36,678 nt of DNA from Bacteroidota bacterium (GCA_020436225.1 JAGQYE010000033.1:1-36678), one strand, 5' to 3'; positions 7,602 to 17,357 are shown, counted from the stretch's first letter. Notes: a model not told the origin generated them from the sequence alone. A program made the numbers and translations.

Positions 7602-8231
7602 ATGGAAAATTGGACAGTTTTAAACGAACTATTCGAGCCCAATCTCATAAAAGAATTAGAAAAAACTTCTAAGCAGATAAATGTTCAAGCCGGCAATACA
7701 ATTTTGGAAATCGGCGAAATCGTGCGTCATATTCCTATTATTCTCGACGGCTCTGTAAAAGTTTCTCGAATTGATGAAGACAACAGAGAATTGTTGTTGT
7801 ATTACGTAAATCCGAAAGAAAGTTGCGCTATGACTTTTACTTGTTGTATGCAACAAAATCCAAGCGAAATTAGAGCTGTTGCCGAAGATGATGTACAAAT
7901 GTTGGCGGTTCCTATTGAAGTAATGGATAAATGGTTAAACAAATTTCCAAGTTGGAAAAATTTTGTTATGAAAACCATTCATATCCGTTTTACTGAACTT
8001 CTCAAAGCCATCGACCAAATCGCTTTTCAAAAATTAGACGAACGATTAATTACTTATTTAAAAGAGAAATCAAAAGCAACCAACTCGACACTTGTCAATT
8101 TATCACATCAACAAATTGCTGACGAATTAGCTACATCGCGCGTCGTAATTTCTCGATTATTGAAAAGTTTAGAAAACGAAAACAAGCTCTTACTCTACAG
8201 AAATCAAATAAAAATCTTAAAAGCTTTGTAA
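7602..8231 (+). CDS. Crp/Fnr-family transcriptional regulator
   Basis: A 209-residue regulator with an N-terminal cyclic-nucleotide-binding-like beta barrel (about 20-125; LDGSVKVSRID and AVPIEVMDKW are typical) and a C-terminal Crp-type winged helix (about 145-209; the SHQQIADELATSRVVISRLL recognition region). The CNB phosphate-binding RAxS signature is not seen, so cAMP is unlikely as ligand. A C-AMTFT-CC cluster (residues about 74-82) could be redox-active, but no Fnr-type N-terminal Fe-S cysteines are present. It lies directly upstream of rhodanese and thioredoxin genes, and related Bacteroidota regulators often sit next to such genes, so control of sulfur/redox functions is inferred. The effector is unknown. 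Confidence 0.88.
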   Translation: MENWTVLNELFEPNLIKELEKTSKQINVQAGNTILEIGEIVRHIPIILDGSVKVSRIDEDNRELLLYYVNPKESCAMTFTCCMQQNPSEIRAVAEDDVQMLAVPIEVMDKWLNKFPSWKNFVMKTIHIRFTELLKAIDQIAFQKLDERLITYLKEKSKATNSTLVNLSHQQIADELATSRVVISRLLKSLENENKLLLYRNQIKILKAL

Positions 8232-13735: not shown

Positions 13736-13763
13736 AAATTGCTCACTTTGAGCAATTTTTTTT
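13736..13763 (+). terminator. Rho-independent terminator after the NlpE-like gene
   Basis: AAATTGCTC and GAGCAATTT form a perfect 9-bp stem with a 5-base loop, running straight into eight T. It isolates the following Rrf2 operon from the upstream genes. Confidence 0.85.
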
Positions 13764-13869
13764 ATTTAATGCAAAAAGAAGAAACAGTAAAAAAGAGGAA
13801 ATATTAAGTAATCCTTACCAAATATTAATTTTATTTAATTTCATAAAACATTTCGGACAATTTTATCGT

Positions 13870-13894
13870 AAATATGTATAATTGCGTATATTTG
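13870..13894 (+). promoter_or_regulatory. Promoter and candidate operator of the Rrf2 operon
   Basis: A TATATTTG -7 box lies at 13887-13894, 21 bases before the Rrf2 ATG. It overlaps the right arm of an inverted repeat AAATAT-N12-ATATTT (13870-13875 and 13888-13893). An operator that covers the -7 box would suit an autorepressing Rrf2 protein. The AT-rich context makes chance dyads likely. Confidence 0.45.
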
Positions 13895-13915
13895 TAGTCC
13901 AAATCAGAAACAAGA

Positions 13916-14350
13916 ATGTTTTCAAAAGCGTGTGAATATGGTTTAAAAGCGTTGGTGTACATCGCCACTCAATCTGCAGAAAACAAACGCGTAAAAATTG
14001 GAGACATCGCAGAAAATACCGGAACTCCTGTTGCTTTCACAGCAAAAATTCTGGGAACTTTAACTAAACACGAATTTGTTGATTCATTAAAAGGACCATA
14101 TGGCGGTTTTGAGATGACAAAGAAACAACGTGATGAAATAAAACTTAGTCAAGTAGTAAATGCTATTGATGGCGACAGTATCTATAAAGCATGTTCTATG
14201 GGAATGTCAGAATGTAGTGACGAAAATCCATGCATCTTACATCATAAATATGTAAAAGTAAGAAACGAAATAAGAAAAATGTTGGAAACTACAACAATTA
14301 GTCAACTTGCTGAGAAAGCAAAAAAAGATCAAATTGCAATACATATTTAA
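13916..14350 (+). CDS. Rrf2-family regulator with three cysteines (NsrR-like)
   Basis: A 144-residue Rrf2 winged-helix regulator: CEYGLKALVYIA at the start, wing region LKGPYGGFEMTK (59-69), dimer helix and a cysteine loop C93-x6-C100-x5-C106. This spacing is close to the cluster-binding loop of NsrR and IscR, so a [2Fe-2S] or [4Fe-4S] cluster that senses NO or redox state is likely. It leads an operon with a truncated haemoglobin and a RIC protein, both NO-related, which favours an NsrR-like role. It is probably autorepressed through the dyad at its promoter. Sequence alone cannot separate NO sensing from general redox sensing. Confidence 0.88.
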   Translation: MFSKACEYGLKALVYIATQSAENKRVKIGDIAENTGTPVAFTAKILGTLTKHEFVDSLKGPYGGFEMTKKQRDEIKLSQVVNAIDGDSIYKACSMGMSECSDENPCILHHKYVKVRNEIRKMLETTTISQLAEKAKKDQIAIHI

Positions 14351-14387
14351 AAAATTTAGACCTATTTAAGACAAGACTATCCTAAAT

Positions 14388-14783
14388 ATGAAAGAATTGA
14401 AAGACATACAAACTATCGAAGACATACAACTTATGGTAAATACATTTTATACTGCTGTAAGAAAAGATGATTTGCTTGGCGATATATTTAACAACGTAAT
14501 ACAAAATAGATGGCCGGAACATCTTGAAAAAATGTATCGTTTTTGGCAAACTGTTTTATTAGAAGAGCATACTTATAATGGCAGTCCTTTTGTACCACAT
14601 GCTAAACTTCCTGTCGATAAAGAACATTTTGAAAGATGGCTCGATTTATTTTTTAATACAGTAGATACTCTTTTTGAAGGTCCAAAAGCTGACCGTGCAA
14701 AATGGCAAGGAGACAGAATGGCTTCCATGTTTTTATATAAAATAAATTATTATAGAGACAACACATCGATTCCATTATTATAA
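14388..14783 (+). CDS. Group III truncated haemoglobin
   Basis: A 131-residue haem protein that probably binds O2 and NO and may act in NO detoxification. By alignment to group III globins from memory, the key residues are Y21 (B10), H45 (E7, WPEHLEKM), H71 (proximal F8, PHAKLPV) and W84 (G8, HFERWL). Group III globins such as Campylobacter Ctb are induced by NO through dedicated regulators. It lies 37 bases after the Rrf2 gene and 43 before the methyltransferase, with no promoter or terminator between. Confidence 0.9.
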   Translation: MKELKDIQTIEDIQLMVNTFYTAVRKDDLLGDIFNNVIQNRWPEHLEKMYRFWQTVLLEEHTYNGSPFVPHAKLPVDKEHFERWLDLFFNTVDTLFEGPKADRAKWQGDRMASMFLYKINYYRDNTSIPLL

Positions 14784-14826
14784 AAAATGCAGTTGTATAT
14801 AATTAAAGAACAATAAATACACAGTC

Positions 14827-15603
14827 ATGATAAAAGATAATTTTGATAAAGCACAAGGACATTGGATTCTAGCTCGAATGGGCAAGAAAGTATTGCGTCC
14901 CGGAGGCAAAGAACTCACACAAAAATTAGTTGACTTTCTTCACATCAACAAAAATGACGAAATTGTAGAATTTGCGCCTGGATTGGGTTTCACTGCTTCA
15001 TTGACGTTAGCTCAGCATCCAAAATCTTATATTGGAGTAGATGCTGACAAAGATGCTGTTGCATTTCTCAATCAAAAAATAAAAGGCGAAAATATAAATT
15101 TTAGATTAGGCAATGCCGCTCATACAGACATCAAAGATAACTCAAAAGATAAAGTTTATGGCGAAGCAATGTTGACCATGCATGCCGACCATCGCAAAGC
15201 AGAAATAATCAAAGAAGCACATCGCATATTAAAAAAAGGTGGTTTATATGCTATTCACGAACTTGGTTTAACACCCAATGAACTTAGCGATGCAGAAAAA
15301 GCTGAAGTACAACGCGACCTTGCTAATTCTATAAAAGTAAATGCTCGACCGTTAACACTAAATGAATGGAAAACACTGTTAGAAAATGAAGGTTTCAAAG
15401 TACAAAAGGTGGCTTCAAATCCAATGCATTTATTGCAAACAAAACGATTAATTCAAGATGAAGGTTGGTTCCGTTCTTTAAAAATCGGGTTTAATATTAT
15501 CACGCATCCAAAAGCGATGAGACGTATTTTGGATATGAAAAATGTTTTCCAAAAACATCAAGAAAAAATGAATTCTGTTGTTTTAGTTGCACAAAAAATA
15601 TAA
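14827..15603 (+). CDS. Class I SAM-dependent methyltransferase
   Basis: A 258-residue Rossmann-fold methyltransferase. Motif I is EFAPGLGFTA (48-57) with D72 as the acidic residue after beta-2; the post-I region is YIGVDADKDA and the later LKKGGLYAIHELG segment is typical. An N-terminal extension (FDKAQGHWILARMGKKVLRP) precedes the fold. The substrate is unknown; small molecules or lipids are more usual for this architecture than nucleic acids. Its place between a truncated haemoglobin and RIC in one transcription unit is the striking point: it suggests a role in NO or metal stress that the sequence alone does not reveal. Confidence 0.85.
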   Translation: MIKDNFDKAQGHWILARMGKKVLRPGGKELTQKLVDFLHINKNDEIVEFAPGLGFTASLTLAQHPKSYIGVDADKDAVAFLNQKIKGENINFRLGNAAHTDIKDNSKDKVYGEAMLTMHADHRKAEIIKEAHRILKKGGLYAIHELGLTPNELSDAEKAEVQRDLANSIKVNARPLTLNEWKTLLENEGFKVQKVASNPMHLLQTKRLIQDEGWFRSLKIGFNIITHPKAMRRILDMKNVFQKHQEKMNSVVLVAQKI

Positions 15604-15631
15604 ACAATTCACTAAATTTAAAATATAAAAT

Positions 15632-16357
15632 ATGAGCATCACCAAAGACACCATTATCGGCGAATTAGTAGCACAAGATTACAGAACCGCATCTATTTTT
15701 AAACAAAATAAGATTGACTTCTGTTGTAATGGCAATAGAACAATCGAAGACGCTTGCCTTCAAAAGAAGATTGACAGTATGCAATTGATACAACATCTTG
15801 AAGAAGCAACCACCAACTCCGGAAATAGTGGCGTAGATTTTAATTCTTTTCCGTTAGATGTTTTGGCAGATTATATTCAGAAAAAACATCATCGTTATGC
15901 AGAAGCAAAAATGCAAGAAATAATTCCCTATCTTAACAAAATAATTAAAGTACATGGCAGTCATCATCCCGAACTTGAACAAGTAGGTGAATTATTTAAT
16001 GAAACAGCAAGTGAATTAACTGTACACATGAAGAAGGAAGAATTAATGTTATTTCCATTCATCAAGAAATTAGAATATGCGCGAGAAAGTGGCACACCTG
16101 TTCAAGCACCATTTGGTTCTGTCGAGAATCCAATTCAGATGATGTTGCACGACCACGATACTGAAGGTGAACGTTTTCGTAAAATTGCAGCCTTGACTGA
16201 TAATTATAATCCACCTGCAGATGCCTGCACAACTTATAAAGTAACATTTTCTTTACTAAAAGAATTTGAAGAAGATTTACATTTGCATATTCATTTAGAA
16301 AACAATATTCTATTTCCAAAATCTATTGAACTCGAAAAAAAATTAAATCAAGCATAA
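15632..16357 (+). CDS. ric: RIC/ScdA/YtfE di-iron repair protein
   Basis: A 241-residue protein that repairs Fe-S clusters damaged by NO or oxidants. An N-terminal DUF542 domain (about 5-45) carries the twin Cys of DFCCNG (C31, C32). The hemerythrin-like domain (about 78-235) has the expected di-iron ligands: H86/H87, H108-H112 cluster, H132 and E136 (HMKKE), H173 or H175 (LHDHD), and H219 and E223 (HIHLE). Length is typical for Bacteroidota members. It sits between the methyltransferase (28 bases) and azurin (30 bases). Production on NO exposure through the Rrf2 protein is the obvious expectation. Confidence 0.95.
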   Translation: MSITKDTIIGELVAQDYRTASIFKQNKIDFCCNGNRTIEDACLQKKIDSMQLIQHLEEATTNSGNSGVDFNSFPLDVLADYIQKKHHRYAEAKMQEIIPYLNKIIKVHGSHHPELEQVGELFNETASELTVHMKKEELMLFPFIKKLEYARESGTPVQAPFGSVENPIQMMLHDHDTEGERFRKIAALTDNYNPPADACTTYKVTFSLLKEFEEDLHLHIHLENNILFPKSIELEKKLNQA

Positions 16358-16387
16358 ATTATTTTTTAATCACTAAACCTTATTCAA

Positions 16388-16900
16388 ATGAAAAAATTAT
16401 TTTTAGTTTTCACAATCGCTTCTCTAACATTTGTAGCATGTAACAACAAAACAAGTGACTCAGGAGAAACCACAACAGAAACCACAACAGAAACTGCACC
16501 AGCAGAAACACCGGAAAGTAATGTAGCCACTGTTGAACTTAATGCCGGAGATGATATGAAATACGATTTAAGCGAAATCGTAGTAGAAGCCGGACAAACA
16601 GTAAAATTGACTTTACACCACACTGGTCAATCTCCAGCTACTACAATGGGACACAACTTTGTATTGTTAAAAGCAGGTGTTGACTTTGACAAATTTGTTT
16701 TAGCAACAGCAACAGCAACTGAAGCAACTGACCATATTCCTGCTGACCATGCTGCAGATGTTATTGCGCATACAAAAACAATTGGTGGTGGCGAATCTAC
16801 AGAAATTGAATTTCCTGCACCTCCAGCCGGAACATATGATTTCTTATGCTCTTTCCCTGGTCACGCAGCATTGATGAAAGGTAAATTTATCGTAGAATAA
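16388..16900 (+). CDS. Azurin-like type 1 copper lipoprotein
   Basis: A 170-residue electron carrier on the periplasmic side. The signal peptide ends in a lipobox at C18 (LTFVAC), followed by a Thr/Glu-rich linker (about 21-46) and the azurin fold (about 47-170). The copper ligands are all present: H89 (MGHNF), C154, H159 and M163 (LCSFPGHAALM). Azurins pass electrons to nitrite or NO reductases and peroxidases in other bacteria; no such partner is encoded in this window. It is the last gene before the terminator at 16944, so it belongs to the Rrf2 unit. Confidence 0.92.
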   Translation: MKKLFLVFTIASLTFVACNNKTSDSGETTTETTTETAPAETPESNVATVELNAGDDMKYDLSEIVVEAGQTVKLTLHHTGQSPATTMGHNFVLLKAGVDFDKFVLATATATEATDHIPADHAADVIAHTKTIGGGESTEIEFPAPPAGTYDFLCSFPGHAALMKGKFIVE

Positions 16901-16943
16901 TAGAGATTTATTCGATTATTTTTCGATCCAACGACTACTTACA

Positions 16944-16977
16944 CCGGAATAAATCTCTCGATTTATTCCGGTTTTTT
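16944..16977 (+). terminator. Strong rho-independent terminator after azurin
   Basis: A perfect 12-bp stem (CCGGAATAAATC / GATTTATTCCGG) with a TCTC loop is followed by six T. It closes the Rrf2-trHb-methyltransferase-RIC-azurin operon. Confidence 0.92.
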
Positions 16978-17003: not shown

Positions 17004-17357
17004 ATGATGAAAACAATTAAAATCAAAAGGATATACGACACAAAAGCTGAAGACGATGGATATAGAATTTTAATTGACCGACTTTGGCCAAGAGGTGTTA
17101 GCAAAAAATTGGCAGAATTAGACGAATGGAATAAAGAAGTTACGCCAACGCCCGAACTAAGAAAATGGTTTGCACATGATCCGGAAAAATTCGAAGAATT
17201 TAAAAGTTTATATCAAGAGGAATTACGCGACCATAAAAGTGAATTAAAGCGATTAAAATCTATTGCAGCATCGCAAAACCTTACATTATTATATGCAGCA
17301 AAAGATCCGAAAATAAATCACGCCATTATTTTACTTGATGCTATCAAGAAAAGCTAA
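17004..17357 (+). CDS. DUF488 family protein (YeaO-like)
   Basis: A 117-residue cytoplasmic protein with the family signature IKRIYD..DGYRILIDRLWPRGV, then LDEWNKEVTPTPELRKWFAHDPEKF and LLYAAKDPKINHAIIL. The function of DUF488 is not established; the Arg/Trp-rich conserved face suggests a binding or enzymatic site. Start could be 17004 or the next codon 17007, since two ATGs are adjacent. It lies 26 bases after the terminator of the NO operon, so it is either separately transcribed or expressed by read-through. Confidence 0.88.
   Translation: MMKTIKIKRIYDTKAEDDGYRILIDRLWPRGVSKKLAELDEWNKEVTPTPELRKWFAHDPEKFEEFKSLYQEELRDHKSELKRLKSIAASQNLTLLYAAKDPKINHAIILLDAIKKS

Follow-up and report, generated by a model that had tools for sequence, protein, structure and literature searches.

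Does an operon of the nitric oxide (NO) stress type in Bacteroidota draw a SAM methyltransferase (MT) and an azurin lipoprotein into its response, or do these two genes merely lie beside it? An earlier note on this DNA raised the question, and we address it using the window, by which we mean the whole stretch of 36,678 nucleotides that was analysed, the genome to which it belongs, and the corresponding loci of relatives.

Operon anatomy and gene neighbourhood

The NO-type stress operon of five neighbouring genes is real and widely shared among bacteria. On the + strand, its genes run in the order rrf2, tHb3 (group III truncated haemoglobin), MT, RIC/YtfE and azurin lipoprotein, separated by intergenic gaps of 37, 43, 28 and 30 bp. 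The features at the locus are:

13736-13758, + strand: intrinsic terminator of the upstream gene; 10-pair stem and T run, -10 kcal/mol, z -4.6
13850-13873, no strand: operator 1, ATTTCGGACAATTTTATCGTAAAT; overlaps the -33 region of the rrf2 promoter; position weight matrix (PWM) score 29.7
13887-13894, + strand: -7 box, TATATTTG
13916-14350, + strand: rrf2, 144 aa; NsrR/IscR-like repressor, predicted Fe-S protein
14364-14387, no strand: operator 2, ATTTAAGACAAGACTATCCTAAAT; abuts the tHb3 start codon, without a -7 box downstream; PWM score 23.8
14388-14783, + strand: tHb3, group III truncated haemoglobin, 131 aa; PF01152 (Bac_globin)
14827-15603, + strand: MT, class I SAM methyltransferase, 258 aa; PF08241/13649 (Methyltransf_11)
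15632-16357, + strand: RIC/YtfE/ScdA di-iron protein, 241 aa; ScdA_N and hemerythrin domains
16388-16900, + strand: azurin-family lipoprotein, 170 aa; PF00127
16943-16972, + strand: operon terminator; 13-pair stem and T run, -18.1 kcal/mol, z -6.8
17004-17357, + strand: DUF488 (inactive N3 subclade) gene; PF22752, 133 bits; beyond the operon terminator here

The earlier note had described five same-strand genes with gaps of 28-43 bp, bounded by terminators and preceded by a -7 box at 13887. The ORFs were found at the places it claimed, folding confirmed both stem-loops (z -4.6 and z -6.8), a TAnnTTTG-type box is present at 13887-13894, and domain searches upheld the names it gave to all five products. 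The box fits TAnnTTTG, the Bacteroidota sigma-A -7 consensus (PMC9723704), and lies 21 nt past the third base of a TTR triplet within operator 1, a distance of 18-23 nt in relatives. A sigma-70 promoter scan, which is uninformative for Bacteroidota, returned fewer matches than shuffled sequences. Farther upstream, the window holds a Crp/Fnr-family regulator (7602-8231), unconnected with the operon here.

A conserved neighbourhood in relatives, on which the earlier note had staked its proposal beforehand, is present and recurs across Bacteroidota. Our scan of species genomes gave 43 named loci with an MT relative (50-70% identity), and whole-genome searches supplied more relatives. The recurrent Bacteroidota arrangement is rrf2-(tHb3)-...-MT-RIC-(azurin)-(DUF488), and a partial arrangement, RIC-MT-DUF488, occurs in one Ignavibacteriaceae locus. 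RIC is the next same-strand gene after MT in 32 of 50 loci, mostly 5-36 bp apart, and azurin comes immediately after RIC in 12 of the 34 RIC loci; rrf2 and tHb3 are common upstream of MT, and DUF488 or a hemerythrin-like gene is often found downstream. DUF488 follows azurin or RIC in many relatives and is thus part of the conserved neighbourhood, a point absent from the earlier note. Over a poorly resolved tree, the MT-RIC linkage recurs with about 7 changes, compared with 13.8 in shuffles. The window's MT clusters with that of locus L001, apart from the copies of its own family, and a close MT is absent from seven same-genus genomes and several same-family genomes. This grouping and the seven genomes without a close copy suggest horizontal transfer or loss of MT, and its absence from same-genus and same-family genomes indicates that the system is optional.

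Many relatives carry two extra genes between tHb3 and MT, neither of which the window has. One, located after tHb3 in most relatives (L035:4621-5067 and 15 other loci), encodes a small membrane protein of about 145 aa that neither Pfam nor NCBIfam matches. The other, placed between tHb3 and MT (L035:5064-5987 and 11 other loci), is tryptophan-2,3-dioxygenase-like, scoring 83.7 bits to PF03301 and 98.8 bits to TIGR03036 against a cut-off of 390.7; a relative of a haem enzyme inside an NO-type operon was unexpected. A CcoN-like haem-copper oxidase accompanies the operon in L112/L121 (genome G322), where its gene sits behind the operator, and at L002:422-2539, where it reaches 261 bits against a ccoN cut-off of 583. 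This CcoN-like oxidase may be a cbb3-derived NO reductase.

A 24-bp operator and the genes behind it

Footprinting across relatives yielded a 24-bp palindromic operator, ATTTnnGAYAnnnTTRTCnnAAAT, with two copies at this operon that the earlier note had overlooked. The palindrome emerged from an alignment of the DNA 5' of rrf2 in relatives, and operator 1 lies at the matching position. The PWM was symmetrised and built from 16 relatives but not from the window, whose scores are thus out of sample. Across 540 kb of loci, it found 27 matches scoring at least 16, versus 0 in a Markov null, nearly all of them at the start of rrf2, MT, tHb3, F10 or RIC. Operators 1 and 2 are the only sites with one mismatch or fewer in their own 2.69-Mb genome, and zero-mismatch sites with a PWM score of at least 22.5 adjoin regulon genes across 395 genomes. 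Two-mismatch sites do not extend the regulon in the window's own genome, where their counts equal those of a reversed-pattern control; the best extra candidate (PWM 19.2) sits inside a coding gene.

The rrf2-proximal operators of relatives overlap the -33 TTG/TTA, and TAnnTTTG follows 18-23 nt beyond, which is the placement expected of a repressor site. An internal second operator at the junction of rrf2 and its target, with no -7 box behind it, also occurs in L010, L035 and L112, and in L144 the internal operator comes after rrf2-azurin. An RNA attenuator at operator 2 was considered and rejected, as no RNA hairpin forms there (z 0.25).

Split versions of the operon keep the operator: it stands directly before MT in six loci in which rrf2 is not adjacent (L007, L009, L014, L017, L156 and L157), before azurin in L142, and before rrf2-azurin in L141 and L144. 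Other copies lie directly in front of RIC or a haem-copper oxidase gene, and in Taishania pollutisoli, a cultured relative, MT-RIC comes straight after the operator. Because the same operator stands directly before each, sequence comparison identifies MT and azurin as true regulon members, not bystanders. The earlier note's proposal that both belong to the same response is consequently borne out as regulon membership, through shared operator and synteny. Operators before rrf2 and before operons of tHb3, MT, RIC or azurin point to autoregulation combined with control of NO-defence genes. As far as sequence can establish them, we regard the operon's anatomy, the operator with its genomic specificity, and the membership of MT and azurin as settled.

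The regulator, its signal and the proteins it would control

Rrf2 has the fold of its family (PF02082, 98 bits; TIGR00738 above cut-off), and across 16 relatives C6, E7, C93, C100 and C106 never vary, with K or R at position 11. In Streptomyces coelicolor NsrR, a [4Fe-4S] cluster is bound by three Cys and Asp8, and Asp8 pairs with Arg12 (PMC5411485). The ligand pattern C93-X6-C100-X5-C106 (ending CX5C) with the N-terminal carboxylate E7 is of this NsrR type, and K/R11 corresponds to the Arg of the Asp8-Arg12 pair. With three Cys and a Glu at the positions of known cluster ligands, its sequence supports an NsrR-like architecture for Rrf2. By equivalog score it is not an NsrR, reaching 45.5 bits against a cut-off of 182 for NF008240. 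It also falls well below the IscR equivalog cut-off, and a PDB profile search ranks CymR, IscR and RsrR above NsrR. Given these sub-cut-off scores and this ranking, Rrf2 could be responding to iron, redox or nitrite instead of NO.

The partner proteins retain their expected functional residues. The sole PDB match of tHb3 is 2ig3, a Campylobacter jejuni group III truncated haemoglobin (E 4.9e-16), and its invariant Y21, H45, H71 and W84 are what we take to be Tyr B10, His E7, the proximal His and Trp G8. RIC scores 240.3 bits to TIGR03652, above the equivalog cut-off of 204.7, and its invariant C31 and C32 correspond to the di-Cys motif of YtfE. In azurin, the type 1 copper ligands H89, C154, H159 and M163 are all invariant and the lipobox C18 is conserved; its TIGR02695 score of 102.9 bits is marginally below the cut-off of 105.1, and its best PDB match is 3ay2, a lipid-modified azurin.

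MT is a distinct, highly conserved family, with the motifs GK-VLRPGG, EAMLTMHADH, HE and VN--PL invariant in a 34-sequence alignment. Its AF2 model (pLDDT 89.8) resembles small-molecule methyltransferases with a cap, and the Foldseek matches point to no substrate. None of the curated methyltransferase equivalogs BioC, ArsM, UbiE and DVU1556 was above cut-off (best NF045667, 69.5 versus 155 bits), nor was any quinone methyltransferase model. Genes flanking the MTs that are unlinked to RIC (lyase, decarboxylase, DEAD helicase, P-type ATPase, HD-domain protein, catalase, LanC-like, FeoB) share no common theme, and coupling to RIC is the best clue to the substrate. Tentatively, and with less than even confidence, we propose that MT is the first member of a new enzyme family dedicated to nitrosative stress and that, together with RIC, it methylates a small molecule which NO attack forms or releases. 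Bacteroidota would then possess, in RIC-MT, a conserved pair of genes for repair or detoxification, governed by an NsrR-like regulator that is itself new and has an operator of its own.

The window's genome encodes, on another contig (L104:6579-8057), a NirK that carries a cytochrome c domain at its C-terminus, and no operator was found near nirK in this genome. A formylglycine-enzyme-like gene and a SCO-like gene follow nirK on that contig. Gene context assigns the two haem-copper oxidases of the genome to the cbb3 and caa3 types; a search that covered NosZ, Hcp and NO-reductase-type haem-copper oxidases detected none of the three. The azurin is the genome's sole Copper-bind-family protein. 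Together with the NirK-cytochrome c on another contig, this fits the suggestion in the earlier note that azurin serves a reductase elsewhere, and azurin could plausibly pass electrons to NirK or to an oxidase. Among 295 genomes, and uncorrected for phylogeny, MT occurs with NirK in 9/18 versus 11/277 genomes (Fisher p 1.4e-7) and with azurin in 9/18 versus 18/277 (Fisher p 3e-6), and the azurin-NirK association is weaker; half of the MT genomes are without a NirK above cut-off.

We consider it probable that this is a self-regulated nitrosative-stress operon of Bacteroidota under an Fe-S, NsrR-like Rrf2, with tHb3, MT, RIC and azurin co-produced. The simplest reading is that NirK makes the NO, Rrf2 senses it, and tHb3 and RIC deal with it. 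From the evidence above we infer an Fe-S cluster in Rrf2, NO as its signal, a roadblock and the enzymatic roles, as follows. At its own promoter, Rrf2 would bind the 24-bp palindrome that overlaps the -33 region; at the rrf2/globin junction, it would occupy the second copy, probably as a roadblock. NO, most likely from the cell's own NirK, would nitrosylate the cluster and lift repression, and the five proteins would be produced together. Of these, tHb3 would bind or consume NO, RIC would deal with iron-nitrosyl or Fe-S damage, or with nitrite, and the azurin lipoprotein would carry electrons within the cell envelope, probably to NirK-cytochrome c or an oxidase. MT would act on a small molecule, methylating it, and the fate of that molecule would be linked to RIC.

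Two alternatives keep the operon and change its signal. Rrf2 might sense iron, Fe-S status or general redox, as IscR, RirA or RsrR do, and the operon would then answer cluster damage and not NO; IscR, CymR and RsrR are nearer to Rrf2 than NsrR in the NCBIfam and PDB searches, E7 aligns with E8 of RsrR, and RIC/YtfE is tied to Fe-S damage. However, the partners are NO-linked (group III globin and RIC here; NnrS-like and haem-copper oxidase genes in relatives), no operator precedes Fe-S assembly genes in the loci inspected, and NsrR is likewise an Rrf2 Fe-S protein with three Cys and a carboxylate, and we judge this reading improbable. In the other alternative, RIC reduces nitrite and thereby makes NO, the activity proposed for Escherichia coli YtfE, which is reported to reduce nitrite and, under physiological conditions, not to repair Fe-S clusters (PMC9052748); the operon would sense and clear nitrite, with tHb3 as an NO sink. 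The invariant C31 and C32, which match the YtfE di-Cys motif, favour this reading, but it leaves MT and azurin unexplained, and we hold it to be unlikely.

The remaining alternatives concern MT and azurin themselves. Instead of defending against NO, both could support denitrification, serving NirK respiration by delivering electrons and by methylating a quinone or cofactor; NirK is in the genome, MT and azurin co-occur with it, and relatives place the operon beside haem-copper oxidase genes. The probability of this reading is low, as nirK is without a nearby operator, half of the MT genomes are missing a NirK above cut-off, MT passes no quinone methyltransferase cut-off, and its neighbour is RIC, not the nir genes. 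That both are chance neighbours, sharing only a read-through transcript, is scarcely credible: some rrf2-tHb3 or RIC loci lack them and azurins stand in other contexts in many genomes, but each lies directly behind an operator, alone or with rrf2, in unrelated loci, and MT-RIC adjacency recurs across the tree. The operator and synteny evidence largely refutes it.

Under the NO-response reading, Bacteroidota gain a defined NO-type regulon with a concrete operator, usable for genome annotation, and a strongly conserved, uncharacterised methyltransferase family is placed beside RIC/YtfE, whose role is disputed (PMC9052748). Bacteroidota that have NirK but in which no NO reductase is detected matter for the release of NO and N2O, and the operon may let one of them survive its own NO.

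Comparison with known systems

Our literature search found no description of the five-gene set. Its closest parallel is with the NsrR regulons of Proteobacteria and Streptomyces. These likewise have an Rrf2 repressor whose cluster-ligand region contains three Cys together with an N-terminal carboxylate, and they share autoregulation, control of RIC/DnrN and NO-binding globins, and a palindromic operator of similar length. In contrast to those regulons, the palindrome here is the 24-bp ATTTnnGAYA-N4-TRTCnnAAAT and not the 23-bp NsrR site, the core includes MT and azurin and not hmp and hcp, Glu replaces Asp, and the equivalog score is 45.5 versus 182 bits. The operon thus appears to be a regulon of NsrR type that has its own operator and includes MT and azurin.

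The product of tehB is presumably a SAM methyltransferase. This tellurite-resistance-type gene lies within enterobacterial NsrR regulons (PMC1274295). It is a precedent for a methyltransferase gene under an NO-sensing Rrf2 repressor, but the searches run with the present MT gave no match to a TehB structure or model, and this MT is physically coupled to RIC. For the azurin, the closest solved structure, 3ay2, is one that we take to be the Neisseria lipid-modified azurin (Laz), and in both cases a lipoprotein azurin occurs in a NirK-bearing organism; the comparison is at the level of the protein, and the azurin here lies in an rrf2/RIC operon. Finally, MT shares a class I fold and substrate cap with phosphoethanolamine methyltransferase, TleD and RebM (Foldseek E 1e-17 to 1e-15, TM about 0.65-0.73), but at 14-20% identity, with none of those families above cut-off and with an EAMLTMHADH motif of its own.
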